Below are positions 1 through 37,615 of a DNA stretch of 37,615 nucleotides, piece after piece. Within the stretch, counting starts at the first letter, position 1. Each line of letters begins with the position of its first letter. The translations under genes were made by a program, and so were the position numbers. Origin of the DNA: an uncultured Spirochaetaceae bacterium (GTDB lineage Bacteria > Spirochaetota > Spirochaetia > Sphaerochaetales > Sphaerochaetaceae); contig CALXLH010000013.1 in assembly GCA_944389145.1 (NCBI GenBank), forward strand, positions 1 through 37,615, read 5' to 3'. The notes below the pieces were generated by a model that was given only the letters and a program-made list of their open reading frames with translations, made no database searches and was not told the DNA's origin.

Positions 1-37
1 GATCAAGGTCGCCCATGATCCTCATTCCTGATTCAAT

Positions 38-69
38 GGGCCGCGTCCGCTCAGGCTAAGACACGGCCC
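38..69 (-). terminator. Hairpin downstream of left GLUG lipoprotein gene
   Basis: Arms GGGCCGCGTC (38-47) and GACACGGCCC (60-69) pair with one mismatch around a 12-nt loop. It lies about 65 nt past the stop of the minus-strand lipoprotein gene, so it may end the cassette transcript. There is no clear U-run, so a role as an intrinsic terminator is uncertain. The same hairpin is at 34277-34308. Confidence 0.5.
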
Positions 70-132
70 GTTCATCAATAATCCTGGAAGATCTGGAAAC
101 TCTCGTTTGCCAAATCGAATTCCCTTAGTCAG

Positions 133-1287
133 TTACGGCTGTCCGATGGCGGACATGTCATCAGCTGTAGCGGAAGCGATTGTTTCCGATACATCAGCAC
201 CAATCACGATGGTATTATCAGAGCCGTATACAGCAGAACCGCTAGCAACGATTGCTGCAGCCTTCGGTTCCGAAGAAGTTGCGTCACAGCTGATCTGAGA
301 AGCATCTGAAAGAATCACATGGTTATCAGAGAACGTCACATTCGATCCGGCATTGCCGCAGATTCCTGCCGCATTCTTGGCTGAAGCAAAAATCTGACCG
401 CCTGCAGAAAGATCCACGGTATTTCCAGAAATCGTAATATCAATCGTTGTACCATGCTGCGGATCATTCTTACTTGCGCAACCTACGATGCCACCAGCAT
501 TGTAGTTTCCGGTATGGTTACCACTCTCGTTTGCCTCGGCATAATCAATTGTGGTATCCGTTGCAAGCACAGCGGTATTCTCAACAAAACAATCAGTGAT
601 GCTTCCACCATCATAGAGCCTGCCTACGACAGCACCCACTCCCTGAGGTCCCATGATCGTTGAATTGATAACTCTGATATGTGAAATCTCAGCCTTCTCT
701 GCATAGCCTACTGCGAAGCCTGCCGTATTCGTATTGGAAACAAGCGTACAGTTCTCAAATGTAAGATTAGAAATCTTAGCTGGGACTGCATCGGTTCCGA
801 CGACTGCGCCGAAGAACCCAACAGGAGTCCCATCTTCCTGAGCCTCTGTAATCGTACCAGTCTCGTCAACAGGATATGAGAGGTTCACATTCCTGAATGT
901 ACTGTAATTCCCATCGAACTCGCCCTTAAAGGCCTTGTAGGTAGCGCTGTCCTTCCTATCAGTAGCACTTCCAAGGAATGAGGCAACGCCATCATTGGTC
1001 TGAGAAACCTTGGAAAAATCATATACTCCATTCTTCAATATGATCTGCTTATCGGAGAAGTCCTCGCCTTCCTCAATCAGCTTACCGATTCCAAGGATCT
1101 CATTCGCGGTGTCAAGTACGAAATATGTCGCATCTTCGTTGTACCAGTTGGTATCAGGCTGGGTTGCATAGATAGCAAGGAAATCTTCCCACTTATCTGC
1201 GTTGTCATTTGCAGCGCTATTGTCACATCCTACAATCACGAGGAGTGCCATAAGCACCACTGCGATCAGGCCGCCTATCTTTCTCAT
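133..1287 (-). CDS. GLUG-type repeat lipoprotein (left cassette)
   Basis: This predicted surface or periplasmic lipoprotein has 384 aa. The N-terminus MRKIGG is followed by a hydrophobic stretch and a lipobox ending VIVGC, with the lipidated Cys near residue 21. The body contains glycine-rich, short-strand repeats such as GFFGAVVG, GFAVGYAE, GAVVGRLYDGG and GGIVGCAS. These are typical of GLUG-motif or right-handed beta-helix surface proteins. It is paralogous to the gene at 34364-35776: signal peptide and overall plan are shared, but the internal sequence diverges and the paralog is 86 aa longer. It is the third gene of the cassette, after the Ig-like lipoprotein and the HTH gene. A GAGGGG ribosome-binding site precedes the ATG. 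The ligand or host target is unknown. The family call is moderate; the lipoprotein call is strong. Confidence 0.85.
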   Translation of the reverse strand: MRKIGGLIAVVLMALLVIVGCDNSAANDNADKWEDFLAIYATQPDTNWYNEDATYFVLDTANEILGIGKLIEEGEDFSDKQIILKNGVYDFSKVSQTNDGVASFLGSATDRKDSATYKAFKGEFDGNYSTFRNVNLSYPVDETGTITEAQEDGTPVGFFGAVVGTDAVPAKISNLTFENCTLVSNTNTAGFAVGYAEKAEISHIRVINSTIMGPQGVGAVVGRLYDGGSITDCFVENTAVLATDTTIDYAEANESGNHTGNYNAGGIVGCASKNDPQHGTTIDITISGNTVDLSAGGQIFASAKNAAGICGNAGSNVTFSDNHVILSDASQISCDATSSEPKAAAIVASGSAVYGSDNTIVIGADVSETIASATADDMSAIGQP

Positions 1288-1321
1288 CTTTTCCCCTCTG
1301 TCCCCTTTCCAGGTTCCATAA

Positions 1322-1343
1322 GGGCCCAGCCTAGGCTGAGCCC
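1322..1343 (-). terminator. Near-perfect palindrome between HTH and GLUG lipoprotein genes
   Basis: A 22-nt inverted repeat (arms GGGCCCAGCCT and AGGCTGAGCCC, one mismatched pair) lies 41 nt past the HTH stop and upstream of the lipoprotein ribosome-binding site. It is conserved at 35811-35832. With no U-run after it on the minus strand, it may be an attenuator, an RNA-processing site or a protein-binding palindrome rather than a terminator. Confidence 0.5.
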
Positions 1344-1384
1344 AAAAGCATAAAATATTCGGAAGAGCTATAACTCTCTTCTAC

Positions 1385-1579
1385 CTATTTCATTCCGTAC
1401 GCCCACGACGTATCACCGCTGGCGTACTTCCGTCTGTAGTCCCTGACGGTGTAGGTGTTGAGGCCGGTTATGGTTGCCGTCCTCTTATACCCGTTCCCCT
1501 TCTCGAAGAGGTCTAGGCACTCCTGCCTCTTCTCCACGGGGATCCTCGGCTTCCGGAGGGACGTAGTGACTTCTTCCAT
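1385..1579 (-). CDS. Small helix-turn-helix protein (left cassette)
   Basis: This 64-aa basic protein resembles the homeodomain-like HTH at the N-terminus of transposases and resolvases. The segment from about residue 17 to 52 (ECLDLFEKGNGYKRTATITG, then NTYTVRDYRRKY) reads as helix-turn-helix with a recognition helix starting near TYTVRDY. It has no catalytic domain and no transposon ends were seen. A strong AAGGAGGAGGAG ribosome-binding site precedes the ATG. It lies between the two lipoprotein genes in both cassette copies. Against the copy at 35873-36067 only residues 19 (Gln/Lys) and 51 (Lys/Arg) differ, while 17 codons differ silently. That shows selection to keep the protein. A likely role is DNA binding within the cassette, as a regulator or recombination accessory, but this is inferred only. 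Confidence 0.8.
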   Translation of the reverse strand: MEEVTTSLRKPRIPVEKRQECLDLFEKGNGYKRTATITGLNTYTVRDYRRKYASGDTSWAYGMK

Positions 1580-1601
1580 CTCCTCCTCCTTCCTGAACGC
1601 T

Positions 1602-1625
1602 TGAGGCCCGGTTTCCCAGGCCTCA
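1602..1625 (-). promoter_or_regulatory. Hairpin in the leader of the left HTH gene
   Basis: Arms TGAGGCC (1602-1608) and GGCCTCA (1619-1625) form a 7-bp stem just upstream of the HTH ribosome-binding site. Both the sequence and the distance are conserved in the right copy (36090-36113). It could stabilise a processed transcript or serve as the operator of the HTH protein. No direct evidence separates these. Confidence 0.5.
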
Positions 1626-1640
1626 GCCCTCGTCAGGATT

Positions 1641-1671
1641 CCTAAGCATACCTGAATAATGTATGCCTAGG
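1641..1671 (-). terminator. Hairpin after the left Ig-like lipoprotein gene
   Basis: Arms CCTAAGCATAC (1641-1651) and GTATGCCTAGG (1661-1671) form an 11-bp stem with one mismatch, 15 nt past the lipoprotein stop. No U-run follows on the minus strand, so termination would be partial at best. It is absent from the right cassette, which instead has the 14-nt palindrome TTGAGTAAACTCAA at 36134-36147 over its stop codon. Confidence 0.5.
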
Positions 1672-1686
1672 CGATTTCAATCAGGA

Positions 1687-3090
1687 TTAATTTGCCTTAG
1701 TAGCAACCGTCACGGTCTTTGCCCACTCAGGATGATCAATCGGCGTGATAGTGATATCAATCGGGGCTCCAGGCATCCTGTTGTCAGAAGAGACTTCTTC
1801 AGGAGTGATATTGTAGCCATCGGTCTTGCCATTGAAGGTAAGCTCCTTCGTAGAATCAGTACCATCAGTAAGCTTGTAAACGACCTTAAGGCCAGCTCCA
1901 CTTGCAGATACATCAGCTGCTGTAACTTCCTCAGTGTCTGCACTGTAATCAGTGTCAAGAGCATACTTGAAAGTTCCAACAGTAATGGTTATTCCTGCAG
2001 GGACATTCTCAACAACTTCAATATCCCTAGAAGAAACGGCATCAGTTGTGAATCCAGAAACAACATCAGTCGTTCCTTCATAAGAAGCCCAAAGCTTGAT
2101 GCTGTTACCAGAGACGCTTGTAAACTTAAGCTGTGTAAGATCGCTCATCGTTACAGTAGAAGTCTTGGTACCGTCAGCCGTAAGAGCTACTTTTACACTT
2201 GCCGCAGTTGTTGCCGCTCCAGTCTGCCCATTGACCATGTTAGCAAGGACTGCGATAGGAGCCTTTGCACCGATCGATGCAGCTGCAGGAGTCGCGTCCT
2301 CTGCATAATAGATTACATAATCATCATCGATATCAAAGTAGATAGATGTAATCAGATTCTTCTCATACTTGGCATCGAATGTTGTAGTCGCAGGGGTTGC
2401 ATCCTTCGTCGAAACCTGAACAACAACCTTATCACCAGCGGTATAGTCAGTCATAGCTGCTGTTGCGCTCTTCCAGCCAGCAAGATCAATAGCTTCAAAT
2501 TCGTCATTATCTGCATCGATATAACCGAGAGCTACATCGTAAGCATCCTCATCAAGAACCTTAGTCTCAGTACCGTTGTAGGTAGCGGTAACAACGAGTC
2601 CGGCCTTGCTGACAGTCATGAACTTACCATACTTCTCATCCGTAACAGCCGTTACACCAGCAAGATTCGCATCGCCATCCATTGCTACGATGTTGTAGTA
2701 TGTCTTCACAACATCATCAGCAGTCGCATCAACGGTGATCTTATCGATCTCATAAACAGTCACAGGCACCGTGATCGCAGGAACAGAGACAACACCAGCA
2801 TATGTGAATCCGGTCTTATCCATGTCCTTGGTAAGCACGACGTCAGAAGAGAACAGGGAAGAAGCCATGTTCTCGATCACGACATTGCCAGCTGCATCAT
2901 AGCCGGTGAACGTATAGTCTGCCGGATCGGCCTTCTCACCCTCAAGGTAGACGACATCGCCCTTGGCGGTGGCTTCGATATAAGCAACATCGAGCTGGCT
3001 AGCAGCGCCAGAATTAGCAGTGCTGTTGTCGCAAGCCGCGAAGCCGAATACGACGGCAAGAGCAAGCATTGCAATCATCAACTTTCTCAT
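1687..3090 (-). CDS. Ig-like (Big_3-type) repeat lipoprotein (left cassette)
   Basis: This 467-aa exported lipoprotein has an N-terminal MRKLMIAMLAL hydrophobic run and a lipobox ending GFAAC (Cys near residue 20), then a Ser/Asn/Gly linker. The body consists of repeated beta-rich segments with patterns such as ITVDATADDVVKTYYN and LVVTATYNGTETKVLDEDAY. These are reminiscent of bacterial Ig-like (Big_3-type) domains. It is Thr/Ala/Val/Asp rich and nearly Cys-free after the lipidated residue. The start at 3090 was chosen over an upstream in-frame ATG at 3156. A GGAGG site precedes it, the signal peptide begins there, and the upstream codons cover the promoter. It is the first gene of the cassette and is probably surface exposed. 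The paralog at 36144-37490 shares the export signal but has a different body. Confidence 0.85.
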   Translation of the reverse strand: MRKLMIAMLALAVVFGFAACDNSTANSGAASQLDVAYIEATAKGDVVYLEGEKADPADYTFTGYDAAGNVVIENMASSLFSSDVVLTKDMDKTGFTYAGVVSVPAITVPVTVYEIDKITVDATADDVVKTYYNIVAMDGDANLAGVTAVTDEKYGKFMTVSKAGLVVTATYNGTETKVLDEDAYDVALGYIDADNDEFEAIDLAGWKSATAAMTDYTAGDKVVVQVSTKDATPATTTFDAKYEKNLITSIYFDIDDDYVIYYAEDATPAAASIGAKAPIAVLANMVNGQTGAATTAASVKVALTADGTKTSTVTMSDLTQLKFTSVSGNSIKLWASYEGTTDVVSGFTTDAVSSRDIEVVENVPAGITITVGTFKYALDTDYSADTEEVTAADVSASGAGLKVVYKLTDGTDSTKELTFNGKTDGYNITPEEVSSDNRMPGAPIDITITPIDHPEWAKTVTVATKAN

Positions 3091-3125
3091 CTTAAAAATC
3101 CTCCGAATGAATCTTTGATGCACTA

Positions 3126-3156
3126 AGCCTACCCCCCCCCCGTAGGCTTTTGTCAA
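3126..3156 (-). promoter_or_regulatory. Promoter with G-tract spacer, left cassette
   Basis: On the minus strand a perfect TTGACA -35 (3151-3156) and a TAGGCT -10 (3126-3131) flank a 19-nt spacer. The spacer consists of AAAGCCTAC plus ten G. The AT-rich sequence upstream of the -35 is also conserved with the right copy. The lipoprotein start codon lies 35 nt past the -10. Since 17 nt is the sigma-70 optimum, slippage in the tract would tune promoter strength; this last point is inference. Confidence 0.8.
3132..3141 (-). repeat. Homopolymeric G10 tract inside the promoter spacer
   Basis: Ten consecutive C are read on the plus strand (G on the coding strand), flanked by the inverted heptamers AGCCTAC and GTAGGCT. 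The equivalent tract at 37532-37540 has nine. It is a simple-sequence repeat prone to slipped-strand mispairing. Confidence 0.9.
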
Positions 3157-3291
3157 GAGGTATTTTCACTTTTTATCGCTTTTATGATGATTGGTGCGTC
3201 AGGGACTATCTTCTTTGCTATTAAGGAATTGGCTTTATTTTAGCGGATTGATGTAACCTTTTTCGGGTTCGTTGGTTATGGTTTGTTTGAT

Positions 3292-20895: not shown

Positions 20896-21840
20896 ATGCT
20901 GGAAAAGCAAAAGATACCCTTCTCAAAGCCAGCAACATCCATTGATCAGCAATTCGAGATACTTAAATCAAGAGGATTGAATACCAGCAACGTGGATGGA
21001 TATGAAGAACTTGTCAAAAGGACTCTTCTCCACAACAATTATTATCGACTAGAGGGCTATTGGTTTGACTTTTATGCCCCAGGAAGCTATCCAGCCCATA
21101 AGTTTCTGCCAGGCATATCATTCCAACAGATTTGGAATAATTATAGAGGAGATACGCTCCTTCGCCTGTTCACATTTGCAATAATAGAGCTGATTGAGGT
21201 TTCATTCAGATCTGTATTCGCGTATGTGCTGGCTAATAACCATGGTCCTTTCCCATATAAGCAGGAAAATCTTAATTGCAGCATAGATACATATCTTCAG
21301 GCACTAAATCGGATGAAAGAGGATATTTCTCATTCAAAGGATAGATTCATACATTCCTTCAGGGAAAAATACTCTGATGATATACCTCCTATATGGATGA
21401 TGGTTGAGATAATGTCTATGGGTGAGATATCCAAATGGTACGGAGACTGCATAAAGGAATCTGACAAGAAGGAGATCGCAAGATATTATGGGATCCCTGC
21501 AAAGGTACTGGAATCCTGGATGCGTTCAATATCCATGGTCCGAAACCGTTGCGCCCATCATAATAGGCTGTATGGGATATCAATATCAGGAGGTTTTGTT
21601 ATACCCAAGAAGCTGGGCAATGAGAAATACCGCCGTATCTTCAATGATAAAGATATCAATGGTTTTTATAACATAATCGTCGCCTGCTGTTATATGGCTG
21701 AGTCCATGGGAGAAAAAATAGAAGTAGAAGAATATATAGATAATATAATACGGCTAGTTGATGATTTCGGCCTTGAAGAGGAAAAGATGGGATTCCCTGA
21801 AGGAAAGACCGCAGTACAGCTCTTTCAAGATATTAAATAA
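20896..21840 (+). CDS. Abi_2 (AbiF/AbiD-type) HEPN abortive-infection protein
   Basis: This 314-aa protein belongs to the Abi_2 family of phage-defence proteins. The N-terminal motif runs from residue about 33 to 58 (DGYEELVKRTLLHNNYYRLEGYWF). The HEPN-type RNase motif is SMVRNRCAHHNRLYG, giving R216-N-x3-H221 (RNRCAH). Abi_2 proteins are toxins or RNases thought to be silenced until phage infection, and AbiF members are linked to a cis-encoded RNA antitoxin and are considered relatives of Cas13 ancestors. The ribosome-binding site AAGAGG is adequate. It lies between a decayed ATPase and the ribosomal protein genes, in AT-richer DNA than its neighbours, suggesting acquisition. Confidence 0.88.
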   Translation: MLEKQKIPFSKPATSIDQQFEILKSRGLNTSNVDGYEELVKRTLLHNNYYRLEGYWFDFYAPGSYPAHKFLPGISFQQIWNNYRGDTLLRLFTFAIIELIEVSFRSVFAYVLANNHGPFPYKQENLNCSIDTYLQALNRMKEDISHSKDRFIHSFREKYSDDIPPIWMMVEIMSMGEISKWYGDCIKESDKKEIARYYGIPAKVLESWMRSISMVRNRCAHHNRLYGISISGGFVIPKKLGNEKYRRIFNDKDINGFYNIIVACCYMAESMGEKIEVEEYIDNIIRLVDDFGLEEEKMGFPEGKTAVQLFQDIK

Positions 21841-26955: not shown

Positions 26956-28614
26956 ATGAGCGATGACAGGCTGATGCTTCCCGTCGGCAAGGCGGATTTC
27001 ACCTCGATACGGGAAGGCGGATACTACTATATCGACAAGACCAGGATAATCAGCAGCCTTATCCGCGATGGCGCGGATTCCATCCTCTTCACGCGTCCTA
27101 GGCGTTTCGGGAAGACCCTGACGCAGACCATGCTCGCCTCGTTCTTCGATATCCGCCGCGATAGCGCTTCCCTATTCGAGGGGCTGGATGTGATGGATGA
27201 CGAGAAGGCTGTGGAGGAGTGGATGAACCGCTACCCGGTCATCTACCTTACGTTCAAGGATGTTGATGGCCTGGATTTCGATAGCGCCTTCTCCATGCTG
27301 GGAAGGGCCATAATAGATCTCTTCGAGAGCTACGGCTTCCTGCAGGACGATGAGATGATCGGGGCGGATCGGCAGATATTCCGCAGCATACTGTCAGGAG
27401 CAGCCTCCATCAGCGATATAAAGCAGTCGCTGAAGGTGCTTGCAAAGCTCCTGAGGTCGCATTACGGGCAGAAGGTCATAATACTGATAGACGAATACGA
27501 TGTCCCTCTGGATAGGGCTGAGCAGAATGGTTATTACAGGCCAATGCTCGATATACTCCGGGCGATGTTCTCCTCCGTGCTGAAGGATGATCCTGATATA
27601 AGGAAGGGAATCCTTACCGGGTGCCTGAGGATATCCAAGGAGAGTCTCTTCACAGGACTTAACAACCTCGCGTCATACTCCCTCACAGGTACGGACTATA
27701 CCGATTCATTCGGCTTCACGGAGGAGGAGGTCGGACGCCTCCTTGGCGATGCCGGCCTCTCCGGCAAGGCTGACACCTTCCGCAGATGGTACGATGGCTA
27801 CCGGATCGGAGACCATTCGATATACACGCCATGGGATGTGATCTCATATGCAAGGGATCTCTTATCGGATAGGACCTGCTCCCCTCGCAACTACTGGGCA
27901 GACACCAGCGGCAACAGCGTCATACGCCGCATGATCGATGAGACCGATGCCTCGGTAGCCGATGAATACAGCACGCTCATCGCAGGTGGTACCATTGGAA
28001 AACACATAACCGAGAACCTCACATACGACGATCTCTACCACGATGAGGGGAATATCTGGAGCCTGATGGTCGAGACAGGGTATCTCACGCTCGCAGGCCC
28101 ATATGCCGAGAACGGCGATACGCCTCTCCGCCTTCCCAACGAGGAGATGCGCAATCTCTTCATAGAGAGCGTGAACAGATGGTTCTCGGACATGGTAAGG
28201 AAAGCCGATCTCGCTCCCCTCTTCCGTTCCATCTGGGAGAAGGACGCGGAGAGCCTTTCCGCATTGCTATCAGAGTACCTTGAGCGTTCGATAAGCTACT
28301 ACGACTACAGCGAGAGCTTCTACCACGCCTTCGTATCAGGTCTCATGTCTGCATCCGGCTACAAGGTGCTTTCCAACAGGGAATCAGGGACAGGAAGGCC
28401 GGATCTTATCATCACCGATGTAAGGGGAAGACGCTCCGCCATCTTCGAATTCAAGGTCTCGAAGTCCTATGACCACCTTGAAGAAGGAGCCCTTGATGCA
28501 CTGAGGCAGATCAGGGAGAACGGCTATGGCTCTGACCTGAATCCAGGATATGGTATCGTCAGATTCGGTGTCGCCTTCTTCAAGAAGAGCGCCAGGGCCC
28601 TGGCCGATGCATAG
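26956..28614 (+). CDS. AAA-ATPase-like protein with C-terminal PD-(D/E)XK domain
   Basis: This 552-aa protein is of the widespread AAA-ATPase_like/PDDEXK_9 class. The N-terminal part has YYYIDKTRII and a degenerate Walker A, RPRRFGKT (47-54). Walker B is IILIDEYDVP (about 176-184), followed by the domain's GCLRISKESLFTGLNN and FGFTEEEV motifs. The C-terminal nuclease-like part has GTGRPDLIITD and IFEFKV, the Asp and Glu-x-Lys of PD-(D/E)XK. The family is usually multi-copy in gut anaerobes and its role is unproven (defence or mobile-element functions are suspected). The downstream SprT-like gene overlaps its stop by 8 nt. Confidence 0.88.
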   Translation: MSDDRLMLPVGKADFTSIREGGYYYIDKTRIISSLIRDGADSILFTRPRRFGKTLTQTMLASFFDIRRDSASLFEGLDVMDDEKAVEEWMNRYPVIYLTFKDVDGLDFDSAFSMLGRAIIDLFESYGFLQDDEMIGADRQIFRSILSGAASISDIKQSLKVLAKLLRSHYGQKVIILIDEYDVPLDRAEQNGYYRPMLDILRAMFSSVLKDDPDIRKGILTGCLRISKESLFTGLNNLASYSLTGTDYTDSFGFTEEEVGRLLGDAGLSGKADTFRRWYDGYRIGDHSIYTPWDVISYARDLLSDRTCSPRNYWADTSGNSVIRRMIDETDASVADEYSTLIAGGTIGKHITENLTYDDLYHDEGNIWSLMVETGYLTLAGPYAENGDTPLRLPNEEMRNLFIESVNRWFSDMVRKADLAPLFRSIWEKDAESLSALLSEYLERSISYYDYSESFYHAFVSGLMSASGYKVLSNRESGTGRPDLIITDVRGRRSAIFEFKVSKSYDHLEEGALDALRQIRENGYGSDLNPGYGIVRFGVAFFKKSARALADA

Positions 28615-29694: not shown

Positions 29695-29925
29695 ATGAAG
29701 ATAATTAGCCTACGTCTGAATGAAGAGGAACAGTCTTTCGTGGAAGAAGCGGCCCAGGTGTATGGCTGCAGCCCCTCAACGATGATAAAGCGTCTGGCCT
29801 TTGAGAAGCTCGAAGATGAGTTCGATATGAAGGCCATAGAGGAATATGAAAAGGAAAAGAAGAACGGAACGCTTGTCATTAAGGATTTCGATGAACTCCT
29901 GAGAGAAACGGGAATCGAGTGCTGA
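29695..29925 (+). CDS. RelB-like ribbon-helix-helix antitoxin
   Basis: This 76-aa protein has an N-terminal beta strand and helix pattern, MKIISLRLNEEEQSFVEEAA then STMIKRLAFEKLEDEF, typical of RHH antitoxins of the RelB/DUF6290 type. It would dimerise, bind the palindrome upstream, and neutralise the toxin through its acidic C-terminal half (KNGTLVIKDFDELLRETG). The toxin gene starts 4 nt after its stop. Cognate pair and operator make the assignment strong. Confidence 0.9.
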   Translation: MKIISLRLNEEEQSFVEEAAQVYGCSPSTMIKRLAFEKLEDEFDMKAIEEYEKEKKNGTLVIKDFDELLRETGIEC

Positions 29926-29929
29926 TATT

Positions 29930-30196
29930 ATGGGATATAGGATCAGGATAACAGGAATATTCGAAAGGAAATTCAAGAAGCTTGATTCCGTCTCGCAGAG
30001 ATTCATCACAAAATGGATTAAGAAGAATCTTCGGGATTGTGATGATCCAAGGCTCTATGGCAAGGCGTTATCAGGACCATTGAAAGGCTATTGGCGCTAT
30101 CGCATCGGGGATTATCGTCTTATTGCAGAGATCCATGACAAAGAGCTTGTGATAATCGCAATCGATATAGGGCACCGTAGGGAAGTATATAGATAA
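29930..30196 (+). CDS. RelE/ParE-family toxin
   Basis: This 88-aa toxin matches the RelE mRNA-interferase fold: IRITGIFERKFKKLDS, LYGKALSGPLKGYWRYRIGDYRLIAEI and IAIDIGHRREVYR. The basic C-terminal HRREVYR is characteristic. It would cleave ribosome-bound mRNA when freed from the antitoxin. There is no separate ribosome-binding site, so translation is coupled to the antitoxin gene. Complete and apparently functional. Confidence 0.92.
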   Translation: MGYRIRITGIFERKFKKLDSVSQRFITKWIKKNLRDCDDPRLYGKALSGPLKGYWRYRIGDYRLIAEIHDKELVIIAIDIGHRREVYR

Positions 30197-31497: not shown

Positions 31498-33627
31498 TCA
31501 GCGATCATCTATCTCATAGGCAGTGGTCTCGGGACTTCGTCCCATGGTCGCCTTATTGATACCTATGAATTTCAGCTGCTTCTTAATCTCTGGCCTATCG
31601 GTATTAGCTATCTCATATACATCAGCCTTCATCACATACTTCAGGAATGACTTGATTGAAGAGGTTTCATATCCATCCTTCGCATTTTGTTTCTGCACCA
31701 AGAAGCTATAATCATTGAATATGAGATATTTCAGGATATCATCATACCCCTTCCCTAAACTCCCGAAGTATCTTATCGCCAGACCTACATTCCAGAAGTT
31801 GGATAGACCGAAGAGCATAAAGGATCCCTGCTGCGCAACCATCCTATCCGAAGTGGAAACTGGACTTACGAACGTCCCATTGAGAAGATCAATAGGACGA
31901 AGACACATCTTGAACGATGGATATTCATTCAAGACCTTAGCATGAAGTATTAGCATCTCCTCGTTAGCATATTCGCCTGTCTCTGGGTTGATATAGAATG
32001 GCGAATGATCATATTCCTCAAGGAATGAAATCAACGCAGGATCATCAATGTAGAAGATGATATAATTTGGCGATTGCGACATTCCCGATTCCTTATCCTC
32101 ACTACCTGTACTGATGGAGGATATCTCCTTGCATATGAATCTCACGCCCCATAGATCAAAACTCGAATCATCGACAATATCAAAGGAATCGATGATCTTA
32201 TCGATTTTGTGGATCATAGGCTTGATCAAACTATCAAGAGGACAGAAGTATTCACCCGCCTTCTTATGAGCAATGATCCTAATCTCGTTGATTAAGACAT
32301 TCTTAGAACTTTTACAATCACTTAATGCTTTCGATGGCGACTCCTTATCTTTGATTCCAGCTAACAGATTCTGTAGGATTATATGCAGGGTATTAGCTAT
32401 TATCTCTGTCTTCACGGTATGAGTCTTGATCCCATGATAATCCATCATGAATAAAACATAAGCCTGGATGAAATGATCCATCATAGCCTGGAATCTAAGC
32501 TCCTGCTGCTGCCTGGAGTTGAGAAATGGAAGTGCGGATAAGATCCGGCAGGTATCTGAATCAAAAGCCTTGATCTCATCCTTAGCGACGGGAAATCGGA
32601 AGAAGAAGGACGAATTAATACTAAGCTTCGGAGTTCTCTTGTCGTCTTTAGTCAAGCCATCGAATTTATCTTCCTTTATGCTGTTGAAGCTTGAGACCGC
32701 AAAGAACATACTGACCTGGGGATTAGATGAAACATCCATCATCCTCGTTGGAATCAAATAGTGCTGCATCTTAGAAAGCCGCTGAAGATTCGTTATCCCA
32801 TTGTATTCATCCGGATGCTGGCTTATGACAGAAATAAACAGGTTCCTTTCATAATCCTTAGGCTTATTAGCTCTAAGGACAGAAGGCAAAAGAGGATAAT
32901 TCAGTCCAAGCTGTCCTCTATAAAAAACCGATTGATCCGAAGAAAGTGTCAGGTTATTCAGCTTCTGGAGATCCCATAGGCTTTTTAGACTTGATGAATC
33001 ATCACTAGGAGCATCATCCGCAAGCTTAATGGAAAGAGTCAGATAAAAGAATGCCTTTCCACGCCCACCTAATTCCTCTATATCAGAATACTTACTCCAC
33101 TTGAAATCGTATGGATTACTTATCTTGAACGATAAATCATCATATGAATATGTATCCGGATCGACATGACGGCCCCACCAAATCGTCACGTCATCCCTTT
33201 TATTATCTCTATCGCTAGACTTGATATACGACACATCGTTAGTAAGGAAGATGATATAAGCACGATTATTAGGGAATTGCCTCCTATATGCTTCAAGATC
33301 CTGCATGGCACCCCAAAACCGGCAAAGGGTCTGATTTGTGGCAGTACTGGTATCAGGAGCTAAGAAGTAAATTCCATCAAATACGATATTAATACCCCGC
33401 GCCTTATAGAATAAGACAATGGAATAGTCCACCTGACCATATGAAAGAATCATATCTACAGAAGACGTGCCAGCAACATGGGTTATGGATTCAGCCTTCA
33501 CCATCAGGGATGGATACATCCTAAGCGATTCCTCTATGAAAGCAGCCTTGAAATCACGCTTATTCGCAAACACTGGCCTTTGCTTACTAAGACTTTCTAA
33601 AACCCGATCTATATTGAACTCTTCCAT
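31498..33627 (-). CDS. FRG-domain protein with degenerate nuclease-like N-terminus
   Basis: This is a 709-aa protein. Residues about 20-200 resemble a PD-(D/E)XK-like module: SVDMILSYGQVDYSIVLFYKA then NNRAYIIFLTND. In active relatives the strand reads as Asp, then Glu-x-Lys (IELKYK-like). Here it reads IVLFYK, so the Glu and Lys are replaced and the module is probably catalytically dead. An FRG domain follows at about 234-310 (SVFYRGQLGLNYPLLPSVLR and LSKMQHYLIPTRMMDVSSNP). The C-terminal 400 residues are unassigned. AAAGGAGAAAAGGA precedes the ATG. The gene is AT-rich relative to the core genome and lies 38 nt after a 163-aa unknown gene, probably one operon. Confidence 0.8.
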   Translation of the reverse strand: MEEFNIDRVLESLSKQRPVFANKRDFKAAFIEESLRMYPSLMVKAESITHVAGTSSVDMILSYGQVDYSIVLFYKARGINIVFDGIYFLAPDTSTATNQTLCRFWGAMQDLEAYRRQFPNNRAYIIFLTNDVSYIKSSDRDNKRDDVTIWWGRHVDPDTYSYDDLSFKISNPYDFKWSKYSDIEELGGRGKAFFYLTLSIKLADDAPSDDSSSLKSLWDLQKLNNLTLSSDQSVFYRGQLGLNYPLLPSVLRANKPKDYERNLFISVISQHPDEYNGITNLQRLSKMQHYLIPTRMMDVSSNPQVSMFFAVSSFNSIKEDKFDGLTKDDKRTPKLSINSSFFFRFPVAKDEIKAFDSDTCRILSALPFLNSRQQQELRFQAMMDHFIQAYVLFMMDYHGIKTHTVKTEIIANTLHIILQNLLAGIKDKESPSKALSDCKSSKNVLINEIRIIAHKKAGEYFCPLDSLIKPMIHKIDKIIDSFDIVDDSSFDLWGVRFICKEISSISTGSEDKESGMSQSPNYIIFYIDDPALISFLEEYDHSPFYINPETGEYANEEMLILHAKVLNEYPSFKMCLRPIDLLNGTFVSPVSTSDRMVAQQGSFMLFGLSNFWNVGLAIRYFGSLGKGYDDILKYLIFNDYSFLVQKQNAKDGYETSSIKSFLKYVMKADVYEIANTDRPEIKKQLKFIGINKATMGRSPETTAYEIDDR

Positions 33628-34189: not shown

Positions 34190-34308
34190 GGGCTGTCCCC
34201 GCACAAGCTAAGAGACAGCCCGTTTATAAACTTTCGGAAGATCAAGGTCGCCCATGATCCTCATTCCTGATCCAATGGGCCGCGTCCGCTCAGGCTAAGA
34301 CACGGCCC
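34190..34308 (-). repeat. Two tandem related hairpins downstream of right cassette
   Basis: Unit one has arms GGGCTGTC and GACAGCCC (34190-34221). Unit two has arms GGGCCGCGTC and GACACGGCCC (34277-34308). Their loops share GCTAAGA, and the sequence after each is alike (CGTTTATAAA versus CGTTCATCAA). They are diverged tandem copies 87 bp apart. They may act as terminators of the lipoprotein cassette or as recombination sites. Unit two equals the hairpin at 38-69. Confidence 0.6.
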
Positions 34309-34363
34309 GTTCATCAATAATCCTGGAAGATCTGGAAACTCTCGTTTGCCAAATCGAATTCCC

Positions 34364-35776
34364 TTAGTCAGTTAGCACGCCTGCATTCGTGTTCGCGCTG
34401 TCATCGATGGTGATTTCAGCAGCATTACCGATCTTAATGGTGTTGTCTCCAGATGCCAGACTGATTGAGGCATCTCCACCATAGATAGCTCCCTTTGCTG
34501 ATGCAGCAGAAATCTGGCTCTTATCTGCAATCACGACAGAATTCGAGCTGAATGTAGAGGTAGCCGTCGCATTGCCGCTGATTCCGCCTGCGTTCTTCGA
34601 TGCAGCCTCGATGGAGCTGGTTCCATTCAGGGTGACTATGTTTCCAGAGAAATCGCTTCCAGAAGAGCTGCCGCAGATTCCACCAGCGCCATCTGTCGTA
34701 CCACTTGCCTTAGACGAGCTAATGCTTGCGTTGCCGTTCAGAGTGACCTTGTTACCAGTAAACGTCACCTTATTCGTTGATTTCATGCCTGTGCTTCCAC
34801 AGATTCCGCCAGCAAAGTAATCAGCTGCGGATATCTTGTTTCCGTTTCCAAGCGTTACCTGATTATCTTCGATAGCTATTGCGCCATACTCAGGATCTGG
34901 GGCTGCTACATCCCAGGAACTTCCCCTCGTGCTATAGCTGGCGATTCCGACGATTCCTCCGACATTATAGTTGCCAGTCCTGGGTCCCTCATAATTCACG
35001 TCAACATCGGATGCGATCACAGAGGTATTCTCAACAACGCAGTCCGATATCTCTCCGCTGTTATAGAGCCTTCCGACCACTCCACCTACTCCCTGAGGAC
35101 CAGTGATCGTGCAGTTCCTAACCGTGATTCCGCTGATGATCGCGTTCTCAGCATATCCCACTGCGATACCGGTCGTATTGGATGTGGAGAACAATGTGCA
35201 GTCCTCGAATACGAGATCCCTAACCTCAGCAGGTGCAGCAGCCGTTCCCTTTACGACGCCGAAGAAGCCGACTGCTACATCAGACTCCTCCGCCTCAGTC
35301 AGAGTTCCATCCTTGACTCCCTCTGGATATGAGAGATCGACTCCCTTTATGACAGCGCCATTTCCGTTGAACTTGCCCTTGAAGAAAGCCCTTGAGTCTT
35401 CAAACTGACTATCCTCATAGTACTTCCTGCTTCCGAAGCCGATGAATGAAGGATCCCCCTTCTTGCTCTCGGAAACCTGCGAGAAATCGAACTCTGCATT
35501 TGCAGGAAGGGTTATATTTGCCCCTTCGAATTCCTCACCGCCATTCACAAGCTCCATAAGGCCATAAAGCTCGTTAGCGGTAGTAAGCTTATATGTCTTA
35601 CCAGAAGTGGACTCACCCTCAGTGAACCAGGACGTATCCGGCTGGGTTGCGATTATCCCGTTAATATGGTTGATCCACTCATCATTCCCGTCATTCGTGA
35701 CGGTGCTATTATCACATCCTACAATCACAAGGAGTGCTACAAGCACCAATGCGATCAGGCCGCCTATCTTTCTCAT
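34364..35776 (-). CDS. GLUG-type repeat lipoprotein (right cassette)
   Basis: This 470-aa lipoprotein is paralogous to the gene at 133-1287. It has the same MRKIGG signal and VIVGC lipobox, then GLUG-like segments (GFFGVVKG, GIAVGYAE, GVVGRLYNSG, GGIVGIAS, GGICGSTG). It has more of these repeats than the left copy, which accounts for the extra 86 residues. The body is Ser/Asn/Gly-rich and fits a right-handed beta-helix surface protein. The ribosome-binding site and upstream palindrome are the same as in the left copy. The stop lies 8 nt further downstream in the repeat, and in a different frame, than in the left copy. Confidence 0.87.
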   Translation of the reverse strand: MRKIGGLIALVLVALLVIVGCDNSTVTNDGNDEWINHINGIIATQPDTSWFTEGESTSGKTYKLTTANELYGLMELVNGGEEFEGANITLPANAEFDFSQVSESKKGDPSFIGFGSRKYYEDSQFEDSRAFFKGKFNGNGAVIKGVDLSYPEGVKDGTLTEAEESDVAVGFFGVVKGTAAAPAEVRDLVFEDCTLFSTSNTTGIAVGYAENAIISGITVRNCTITGPQGVGGVVGRLYNSGEISDCVVENTSVIASDVDVNYEGPRTGNYNVGGIVGIASYSTRGSSWDVAAPDPEYGAIAIEDNQVTLGNGNKISAADYFAGGICGSTGMKSTNKVTFTGNKVTLNGNASISSSKASGTTDGAGGICGSSSGSDFSGNIVTLNGTSSIEAASKNAGGISGNATATSTFSSNSVVIADKSQISAASAKGAIYGGDASISLASGDNTIKIGNAAEITIDDSANTNAGVLTD

Positions 35777-35810
35777 CTTTTCCCCTCTGTCCCCTTTCCA
35801 GGTTCCATAA

Positions 35811-35832
35811 GGGCCCAGCCTAGGCTGAGCCC
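35811..35832 (-). terminator. Palindrome between right HTH and GLUG lipoprotein genes
   Basis: It is identical in arms to the palindrome at 1322-1343 and in the same position relative to both genes. Conservation supports a function in the cassette transcript. Confidence 0.5.
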
Positions 35833-35872
35833 AAAAGCATAAAATATTCGGAAGAGCTTAACTCTCTTCTAC

Positions 35873-36067
35873 CTATTTCATCCCGTACGCCCAGGACGTG
35901 TCTCCCGATGCATACCTCCGTCTGTAGTCCCTGACGGTGTAGGTGTTGAGGCCGGTTATCGTCGCCGTCCTCTTGTACCCGTTCCCCTTCTCGAAGAGAT
36001 CCAGGCATTCCTTCCTCTTCTCGACGGGAATCCTTGGTTTCCGGAGGGACGTAGTGACTTCTTCCAT
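35873..36067 (-). CDS. Small helix-turn-helix protein (right cassette)
   Basis: This 64-aa protein is almost identical to the copy at 1385-1579: residue 19 is Lys and residue 51 is Arg here. Nineteen synonymous base changes in 17 codons separate the genes, against two amino-acid changes, both conservative. It has the same strong AAGGAGGAGGAG ribosome-binding site. It is in the same place between the Ig-like and GLUG lipoprotein genes. The preserved reading frame and protein show it is under purifying selection. The function is unknown; DNA binding is expected. Confidence 0.82.
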   Translation of the reverse strand: MEEVTTSLRKPRIPVEKRKECLDLFEKGNGYKRTATITGLNTYTVRDYRRRYASGDTSWAYGMK

Positions 36068-36089
36068 CTCCTCCTCCTTCCTGAACGCT

Positions 36090-36113
36090 TGAGGCCCGGT
36101 TTCCCAGGCCTCA
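36090..36113 (-). promoter_or_regulatory. Hairpin in the leader of the right HTH gene
   Basis: It has the same TGAGGCC/GGCCTCA stem as at 1602-1625, directly upstream of the HTH ribosome-binding site. Confidence 0.5.
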
Positions 36114-36143
36114 GCCCTCGTCAGGATTTCCTATTGAGTAAAC

Positions 36144-37490
36144 TCAAACTGTTGCAATCTTCGATGTTACTGTCTTGCTGAATCCACCAGCAGAAACAGT
36201 TACGGTTACCGGAGTACCTTCAAGATAATCCTTCGAAGAGAATGTAGTAGGATTAATCGTATAACCGTTAGTCGTAGCATTCAGCTTAAGCGTCTGGCCA
36301 GCAGTCTTGGAAGCCATCTCATAGGCTACCGTGAAGTCAGCAGGAGCAGTTGCAGTAGTTGCACTATAGTCTGTATCAAGAGTGAATCCAGTAGATCCAA
36401 CAGTGACTACAAGTCCAGTGATACTATCCTTCTCAACAGGAACGCTAGCAGAAACAGCGACCTGCTTGAAATCAGGAACAACACCCTTTGCAGACTCAAG
36501 CTTTGCCCAGACCGTTACGGAAGTTGCGCCAGTGAGGTCAAGGGATGTAATGTCTGTGGAATAAGTACCATTCTGTGTAAGCGAATACTTAACCACATTG
36601 GCTCCAACCAAAGAAGAAGAAAGCGCAACTCCCTCCTGGCCGTTTACCATGACACCCTTTGCAACTACATCATCAGCAGACAGCTTTGTTGCAGAAGCGA
36701 GGCTAGACTCATCAATACCATAGTAGAGAACATAGTCATCAGCGACATCGACATAGATTGAGCTTACAGCATTGTCACTGTATGTCACTGGATAGTAATC
36801 AACAGCGCTTGTTCCAGCCATGGAAACCTGAACGACAGCATCCTTACCACTCAAGGTCGTTGCTGCAGCGGTTGCCCAATTAGCTCCAGAGATAGCAGCA
36901 AAGCCAGTCTCTGTTCCTGTAGTTACGGTACCAAGAACAGCAATATAATCATCTGCATCGATAACCTTCTCGCTGGTTCCGTTGTAGGTAGCAGTCACTA
37001 CAAGATCGGTCTTGTCAACAAGCGTATACGAATAGTAATCGCCGCCCTCTACCGTGCTTGTAGCATCAACAGCAACAGCACCTACCTGTGAGATCGTGTA
37101 ATATGCATCCTTGACAGTGTCAGCCTTTGCATCAACAGTGATCTTCTCGATTTCATAAACAGACACTGGAACCTTGATGGAAGGAACCGTCACCGCTCCC
37201 GTATAGGAGAAGACAGCCTCATCGTCACCCTTCGCGAAAGCCTTGGTTGCCGAGAAGAGGGTAGAAGCCATGTTCTCAATTACGACGTTTCCGGCTGCAT
37301 CATAGCCAGTGAAGGTGAAGTCTGCCGGATCAGGAGTCTCGCCAACAAGATAATCCGTAGCTGTCTTCTCAACAGCCTCGATATAGGCAACATCAAGCTG
37401 TGACGCACCAGAATTAGCAGTGCTGTTGTCGCAAGCCGCGAAGCCGAATACGACGGCAAGAGCAAGCATTGCAATCATCAACTTTCTCAT
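36144..37490 (-). CDS. Ig-like (Big_3-type) repeat lipoprotein (right cassette)
   Basis: This 448-aa lipoprotein is paralogous to the gene at 1687-3090. The signal peptide and first residues (lipobox GFAAC, then DNSTANSGASQLDVAYIEA) are shared, but the body diverges and is 19 residues shorter. Beta-rich Ig-like patterns include ITVDAKADTVKDAYYTI and LVVTATYNGTSEKVIDADDY. The ATG at 37490 with GGAGG 9 nt upstream was preferred over a frame starting at 37568 that would run through the promoter. The promoter spacer is 18 nt here against 19 in the left copy. Confidence 0.86.
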   Translation of the reverse strand: MRKLMIAMLALAVVFGFAACDNSTANSGASQLDVAYIEAVEKTATDYLVGETPDPADFTFTGYDAAGNVVIENMASTLFSATKAFAKGDDEAVFSYTGAVTVPSIKVPVSVYEIEKITVDAKADTVKDAYYTISQVGAVAVDATSTVEGGDYYSYTLVDKTDLVVTATYNGTSEKVIDADDYIAVLGTVTTGTETGFAAISGANWATAAATTLSGKDAVVQVSMAGTSAVDYYPVTYSDNAVSSIYVDVADDYVLYYGIDESSLASATKLSADDVVAKGVMVNGQEGVALSSSLVGANVVKYSLTQNGTYSTDITSLDLTGATSVTVWAKLESAKGVVPDFKQVAVSASVPVEKDSITGLVVTVGSTGFTLDTDYSATTATAPADFTVAYEMASKTAGQTLKLNATTNGYTINPTTFSSKDYLEGTPVTVTVSAGGFSKTVTSKIATV

Positions 37491-37525
37491 TTCTAAAATC
37501 CTCCGAATGAATCTTTGATGCACTA

Positions 37526-37555
37526 AGCCTACCCCCCCCCGTAGGCTTTTGTCAA
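37526..37555 (-). promoter_or_regulatory. Promoter with G-tract spacer, right cassette
   Basis: TTGACA (37550-37555) and TAGGCT (37526-37531) are separated by 18 nt, which include nine consecutive G (37532-37540). It matches the left copy but for the tract length. Confidence 0.8.
37532..37540 (-). repeat. Homopolymeric G9 tract inside the promoter spacer
   Basis: Nine C are read on the plus strand. The left copy has ten. Confidence 0.9.
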
Positions 37556-37615
37556 GTGCTTTTTTCACTTTTTGACGCTTTTATGCAAGTTGGTGCCTTC
37601 TGTGCTATCTCCTTT

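Follow-up and report, generated by a model that had tools for sequence, protein, structure and literature searches.

Putative surface-lipoprotein cassettes with poly-G promoters and a linked helix-turn-helix gene in an uncultured Spirochaetaceae bacterium

In Borrelia vlsE and Treponema pallidum tprK, gene conversion produces recombination mosaics in which conserved flanks surround a variable part. The promoter of T. pallidum TP0126, as a passage of PMC7864442 describes, carries a poly-G run between its −35 and −10 elements, and the length of the run sets their spacing; part of the discussion of the same paper reports this arrangement for Neisseria meningitidis porA, where tract length again sets the −35/−10 distance (PMC7864442). 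At MerR-regulated promoters, according to two further papers, an over-long spacer of 19–20 bp is read by the activator (PMC8113463, PMC11049809). Here we describe a window of 37,615 nucleotides (nt), the whole of contig C13 of an uncultured Spirochaetaceae genome (2.13 Mb, 42 contigs, 95.3% complete), with two cassettes that bear comparison with these systems. Each consists of a poly-G promoter, a lipoprotein gene (lipoprotein A), a gene for a 64-amino-acid (aa) helix-turn-helix (HTH) protein and a second lipoprotein gene (lipoprotein B). Both lie on the − strand and thus in direct orientation, as the original prediction made from this DNA had stated, copy 2 at 34240–37615 and copy 1 at ~1–3216; because the window is the entire contig, both are cut by contig ends.

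We consider it likely that the two cassettes belong to a scattered family of contingency cassettes for surface lipoproteins, which would vary through slippage in the promoter and recombination of the lipoprotein bodies and might be coordinated by the HTH protein. In gene sense, the promoter of both copies reads TTGACA-AAAGCCTAC-G(9 or 10)-TAGGCT, followed by a ribosome-binding site, and the lipoprotein starts about 40–50 nt past the tract. The window contains three overlapping nine-G matches, all within the two promoter tracts, against 0.31 expected, and three or more were obtained in 2 of 100 shuffles. A genome-wide search for TTGACA-N4-14-G7 returned sites on contigs C4, C13 (two), C14, C22, C25, C26 and C27, and the reversed pattern, used as a control, had zero matches in this genome. 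Among 70 cassette promoter regions, including both copies in the window, 56 place a G homopolymer between the −35 and a −10-like box in the order TTGACA, 5–13 nt, G-run, TA box, with a spacer of 18 in 16 of them, 19 in 25 and 20–22 in 13 (this distribution includes one mis-parsed row, L182, with spacer 13 and an alternative −35). The five tracts of exactly six G all have spacer 18, two of them (L083 and L084) with the same spacer sequence. Tract length differs between cassettes, at 9 versus 10 G in the window and 11 versus 12 in the pair L162/L163, these being lengths in the assembled consensus. The G-run went unnoticed in the original prediction, which had proposed recombination as the source of variation; of the two mechanisms, a tract in the promoter spacer is the more direct and has the better precedent.

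The cassettes in the window are only part of a larger set. The HTH gene has six copies in this genome, and its protein is found in 30 of the 48 genomes of the genus, with up to 16 copies each; a search of 394 genomes of the class gave 27 with a match, of which 22 belong to this genus and the other five match weakly (E ~1e-5 to 9e-4). The named relatives that carry it (44 loci) are uncultured Spirochaetaceae or Spirochaetales genomes. We parsed 91 HTH copies, 68 of which have a gene upstream that is itself preceded by 100 bp or more (L081, with two HTH genes, being counted twice). A lipoprotein gene precedes the HTH gene in 65 of the 68, and the G-run upstream of it, typically 42–54 nt before the start codon, has at least six G in 59 and at least seven in 48. 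The HTH gene and the promoter pattern also co-occur, since 29 of the 30 HTH genomes have the pattern versus 7 of the 18 others in the genus (Fisher p 1.4e-5; kinship is ignored here and in the comparisons of promoter sequence and spacing below). At locus L081 (5689–6188), tandem HTH genes stand behind one lipoprotein, and the second is more divergent (52% identical to the C13 HTH protein).

Across the family, 60 of 139 genomes have the promoter pattern, representing 7 of 22 genera, and the reversed pattern has nine matches in all 139. Of the TTGACA-n-G7 sites, 103 of 113 stand before a lipoprotein-like gene, most of these loci having been chosen by the HTH gene or by the pattern itself. Poly-G lipoprotein promoters extend beyond the HTH cassettes, because loci of a second genus have them (L104, L107 and L108), and relatives of lipoprotein B in four loci (L267, L268, L269 and L274) have a G-run nearby. 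In G125, a genome of another genus of the family, nine poly-G promoters have a distinct fixed sequence between TTGACA and the tract (the pre-tract), ending in TGC, TGCT, TGCCA or TGCTGA, with spacers of 15–17. A virus or prophage origin was considered and set aside: a scan of viral contigs for TTGACA-N7-ACC-G8 gave one contig, with phage head-type genes and no lipoprotein listed after the match, which we took as chance.

Pairwise alignment of the two copies, scored in 50-base steps, bears out the predicted duplication with conserved ends and variable middles. Promoter, 5′ untranslated region and signal peptide are conserved (copy 1 3150–3001, copy 2 37549–37402; steps of 49/49, 47/50 and 46/49), as are the hairpin, HTH gene, second hairpin and second signal peptide (copy 1 1612–1213; 43–50/50 per step, 86–100%) and the 3′ hairpin block (copy 1 124–1; 50/50, 49/50 and 24/24, 98–100%). 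The lipoprotein bodies, in contrast, mostly score 16–37/50 per step (32–74%), with ragged gaps. At the protein level the copies are 97% identical in the HTH protein, 49% in lipoprotein A and 55% in lipoprotein B (residues 1–282).

This contrast recurs throughout the family. Among the 109 within-genome pairs that can be formed from 70 cassettes, the bodies are less than 35% identical in 105; in 24 of the 105, the HTH DNA reaches 90% identity or more. Over all 29 within-genome pairs whose HTH DNA attains that level, mean identity is 0.80 just before the lipoprotein cysteine and 0.31–0.36 from 15 nt past it, and climbs back only at the HTH ribosome-binding site. In the CALXQU genome, for instance, neither the HTH core DNA nor the signal peptides differ among cassettes L160–L163, and five of their six body pairs are 22–28% identical, the sixth reaching 56%. 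Two of these cassettes, L162 and L163, are ~95% identical from −66 to ~+580, fall to background up to ~+1150 and are identical again from the HTH ribosome-binding site. By their sequence, the cassettes are recombinational mosaics, because their ends can be identical within a genome while the bodies are 22–28% identical, and because one pair drops from ~95% to background in mid-gene. Between genomes, two pairs have bodies at least 50% identical; in the discordant one, L078/L233, the bodies are 67% and the HTH DNA 75% identical, versus 95% between the HTH DNA of L078 and that of a paralogue. Two further lipoproteins, of 433 and 439 residues (G073 L226 and G075 L225), are 93% identical over residues 1–213. 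Between body and HTH gene, the hairpin varies in sequence with the body, yet its folding z-score is below −2 in 56 of 59 regions versus 3 of 74 control segments; because it is body-specific and nearly always there, the exchanged module appears to comprise the body, its stop codon and the hairpin. Mosaic sequence between conserved flanks, as in vlsE and tprK, is therefore present. Silent donors of the kind known from those genes are ruled against, as own-genome searches with both lipoproteins, in an assembly 95% complete and probably short of at least one cassette, gave cassette genes only and no silent promoterless archive.

The proposal that recombination or gene conversion generates surface variants is thus supported in part: recombination at the conserved ends agrees with the step-like profiles, the L162/L163 breakpoint and the L078/L233 discordance, and it might proceed by gene conversion and fast enough to produce variants within a population. 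The duplication itself is real, and instead of only two copies with smooth divergence we find six HTH copies in the genome, a genus-wide cassette family and step-like identity. The genes expected between the copies are there (rpsI, rplM and a UPF0004/radical-SAM/TRAM protein fitting rimO); that their loss by deletion would not be tolerated stays conjectural.

At least one further cassette is probably missing from the assembly of this genome. C26 and C27 have the same last 127 bases, which match the promoter end of copy 2 except for one extra G, and the 127 bases with which C42 ends, the 3′ hairpin block included, are also those with which C26 begins. Contig ends shared in this way are what a k-mer assembler leaves at repeats, and they need two promoter-to-terminator paths, of which C13 gives one. 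Similarly, 17 of the 44 HTH copies in the relatives lie within 200 bp of a contig end, against 1.15 expected.

The HTH protein matches HTH_23, HTH_28 and HTH_29 only in Pfam, its HTH_23 scores (25.3 bits for copy 2, 23.8 for copy 1) straddling the gathering cut-off of 24.6 for this Homeodomain-like family. It had no match in NCBIfam, only weak matches in PHROGs (best 0.0048 for the C13 protein) and none at E 0.001 or better with Foldseek. Its model has three main helices (mean predicted local distance difference test score, pLDDT, 82) and is nearest to transposase-type and paired-domain HTHs, with Z at most 7.0, a range (under 8) that may reflect just a common fold. There is no attached catalytic domain, the 64 aa being the HTH alone, and membership of the MerR family was rejected, as Pfam gives no MerR-type winged HTH. 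Within genomes, HTH changes at codon positions 1, 2 and 3 number 443, 258 and 1536. Of the 1771 codons that differ, 1274 do so synonymously and 497 non-synonymously (the pairs overlap, so the counts are not independent). Because changes concentrate at the third position and are mostly synonymous, we conclude that the gene is kept as a protein.

Several features of the promoters follow the presence of this gene. In 15 HTH genomes, 82 of 97 sites have a pre-tract that closes with [A/T]AC, followed by no more than one other base; none of 13 sites from seven HTH-less members of the genus does so, nor any of 10 from two genomes of a third genus; an earlier listing of sites gave 34 of 43 versus 1 of 29 (with our own genome and G040, which is partly listed, omitted). 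The distance from TTGACA to the tract end has a median of 19 in HTH genomes (n=97) versus 16 in HTH-less ones (n=23). In ten HTH genomes, the motif is found at 22 of 27 sites with no HTH gene within 4 kb downstream, versus 32 of 36 where there is one. This points to an effect in trans, although for some of the 27 the contig may end before any HTH gene. A strict TACC/GGTA palindrome was rejected as the HTH site; because the left side is TAC in just 24 of 48 cassette promoters (AAC in 18), only [A/T]AC is claimed as an element. That the motif and the longer spacer track the HTH gene is a hint that the HTH protein acts on the poly-G promoters. More tentatively, it may bind [A/T]AC-Gn-GTA within the over-long spacer, either compensating for its length in a MerR-like manner or repressing sister cassettes; through it, random slippage would be linked with an expression of the exchangeable lipoproteins that is coordinated or mutually exclusive. 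If so, the HTH protein would be a trans-acting regulator that reads a phase-variable tract.

Taken together, a cassette has a fixed front (TTGACA, ~8–12 G, a TAGNNT box, a ribosome-binding site and a lipoprotein signal peptide), an exchangeable body with a stop codon and hairpin of its own, and a back that is likewise fixed (a ribosome-binding site, the ~64-aa HTH protein and, in this species, the second lipoprotein). Slipped-strand changes in the spacer G-run, given the architecture observed, would alter the −35/−10 distance and thereby turn transcription on or off, or adjust its level, in individual cells. Exchange between the fixed parts by homologous recombination or gene conversion, of which the observed mosaicism would be the product, would place new bodies on the same front and back, and the co-transcribed HTH protein, to judge from the correlation described above, might bind G-run promoters, also in trans, and coordinate the family. 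Several observations weigh against this scheme. Of the six cassettes with an HTH gene in this genome, the second on C4 (start 18937) has an interrupted G-run, GGGGAGGGGG, and the one on C25 lacks a tract where its own lipoprotein begins; 14 of the 70 promoter regions do not fit the layout. The TAGNNT −10 box is weak, and tract lengths come from assembled consensus, in which homopolymers can be miscalled. The pair L069/L070, the other of the two with similar bodies across genomes, is concordant. Finally, the association between HTH gene and motif was counted without correction for relatedness, and G001, an HTH-less genome of another genus, carries [A/T]AC.

The cassettes might instead be old paralogues, the products of an ancient duplication whose ends are held by purifying selection while the bodies diverge fast, with the G-run as the sole mechanism of variation and no recombination. 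Constraint on promoter, signal peptide and HTH protein is plausible, and bodies from different species are often recognisable distant homologues, but identity at the ends extends to third codon positions and non-coding bases (the HTH core of L160–L163, the 50/50 non-coding blocks on C13), the step inside the L162/L163 bodies already weakens such a reading, and L078 has a body like that of another species with an HTH gene closer to its paralogues. We therefore regard this explanation as unlikely. Less probable still is an origin in a mobile element, of which the HTH gene would be a relic or a part; the cassettes would then have been dispersed as mobile units, with a G-run promoter that is incidental or was inherited along. 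The HTH_23-type domain of the protein, the resemblance of its model to HTHs of transposases and paired domains (Z no higher than 7.0) and the presence of cassettes at unrelated sites, with identity that stops near the promoter and soon past the HTH gene, would agree with this; the protein, however, is 64 aa without a catalytic domain, is conserved as a protein in a single fixed order behind the lipoprotein, and its Z values under 8 may reflect a common fold alone.

Wrong joins at repeats and G-runs, which would make the mosaics chimaeras, are a natural concern in metagenome assemblies, from which the relatives come, and in which contigs often end within cassettes, as both the proximity of HTH copies to contig ends and the exactly 127 bases common to C26/C27 and C42/C26 illustrate. 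Nevertheless, the assemblers broke at the repeats instead of bridging them, identical architecture recurs across many genomes, and bad joins could reshuffle partners but not make many bodies with one common front and back, so that we consider an artefact very improbable. Probable membership of a contingency cassette family remains our preferred reading of the two copies, whose features are listed in Table 1.

Table 1. Positions of cassette features in the window.
Feature	Position	Strand	Remarks
Copy 2 promoter	37526..37555	−	TTGACA 37550–37555; 9-nt pre-tract ending TAC 37541–37549; 9 G 37532–37540; TAGGCT 37526–37531; spacer 18
Copy 2 lipoprotein A, 448 aa	36144..37490	−	Signal peptide ending FAAC; predicted beta-domain chain; 49% identical to copy 1
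Copy 2 hairpin, lipoprotein A to HTH	36068..36143	−	RNA fold z −4.95
Copy 2 HTH gene, 64 aa, HTH_23-like	35873..36067	−	
Copy 2 HTH–lipoprotein B intergenic stretch	35777..35872	−	Near identical to copy 1; whole-stretch fold no better than shuffles, z −0.50
Copy 2 lipoprotein B, 470 aa, GLUG motifs	34364..35776	−	
Copy 2 conserved 3′ block with terminator-like hairpin	34240..34363	−	z −3.93 (34235–34363); 72–127 bases common with C26 and C42 contig ends
Copy 1 promoter	3126..3156	−	TTGACA; 9-nt pre-tract; 10 G 3132–3141; TAGGCT; spacer 19
Copy 1 lipoprotein A, 467 aa	1687..3090	−	
Copy 1 hairpins, lipoprotein A to HTH	1580..1686	−	One body-specific, one common to copy 2; z −5.75
Copy 1 HTH gene, 64 aa	1385..1579	−	
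Copy 1 lipoprotein B, 384 aa	133..1287	−	
Copy 1 conserved 3′ block, cut by contig end	1..132	−	

In its predicted model (mean pLDDT 78), lipoprotein A consists of beta domains arranged in a chain, and its best Foldseek matches are S-layer proteins and cadherins; because the TM-scores are low, only the general fold type is claimed. From the signal peptides and predicted folds we infer that the lipoproteins lie at the cell surface. Elsewhere in the genome, a lipoprotein gene of the same family on C25, with an HTH gene after it (G000 C25:23452; L034 ~4553, − strand), has an 8-G run in its coding frame and is out of frame, which resembles translational phase variation with the gene switched off. 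On the same contig (28079 to 23623; L034), a 10-G promoter is followed by a 1450-aa phage-like gene and then by a lipoprotein–HTH pair without a G-run promoter of its own, as if the phage-like gene had come in between. The two cassettes of the window also enclose a DUF6290/ParE toxin-antitoxin-like pair (29695–30196) and an Abi_2 abortive infection-like gene (20896–21840), and copy 2 is adjoined by an FRG-domain protein (31498–33627) and an AAA-ATPase-like/PD-(D/E)XK protein (26956–28614), kinds of protein often tied to defence islands.

A search by titles and the beginnings of abstracts, with subscription journals mostly outside its reach, returned no paper on phase variation in this group, and one for Sphaerochaeta and phase variation, with the same restriction, gave none; the spirochaete poly-G switching found in print concerns T. 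pallidum. Another spirochaete lineage, known through metagenome genomes, holds a genus-wide, multi-copy form of poly-G promoter. The fixed front and HTH gene with divergent bodies look like a combined on/off and part-swapping route to surface variation. Dozens of species are available for comparing the fixed ends, the exchangeable bodies and the HTH gene linked to them, and the family offers a natural experiment on the way in which cell-surface variation draws on slippage, recombination and a factor acting in trans. The link between HTH protein and promoters is also open to direct test, with one small protein and short DNA probes.

Among the known systems, MerR-regulated promoters resemble those described here in the median spacer of 19 in HTH genomes (n=97), copy 2 itself having 18; the HTH protein, however, is HTH_23-like and not MerR, its binding is only putative and the spacer is a slippage-prone G-run, so the parallel serves as a lead to its mode of action and not as a family assignment. 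The position of the tract is that of porA, which, in contrast, is a single gene with no cassette family and no HTH gene. With vlsE and tprK the cassettes have in common conserved flanks and recombinational mosaics, but no single expression site with silent donors was found here, every cassette having its own promoter. In T. pallidum TP0126, tprE/G/J and tprL, as part of PMC7864442 describes, a poly-G of similar length likewise lies in the promoter of a spirochaete surface-protein gene. Compared with these, spacers here centre on 18–19 rather than 17, and the tract would control lipoprotein cassettes that occur in many copies, have exchangeable bodies and include a linked HTH gene.

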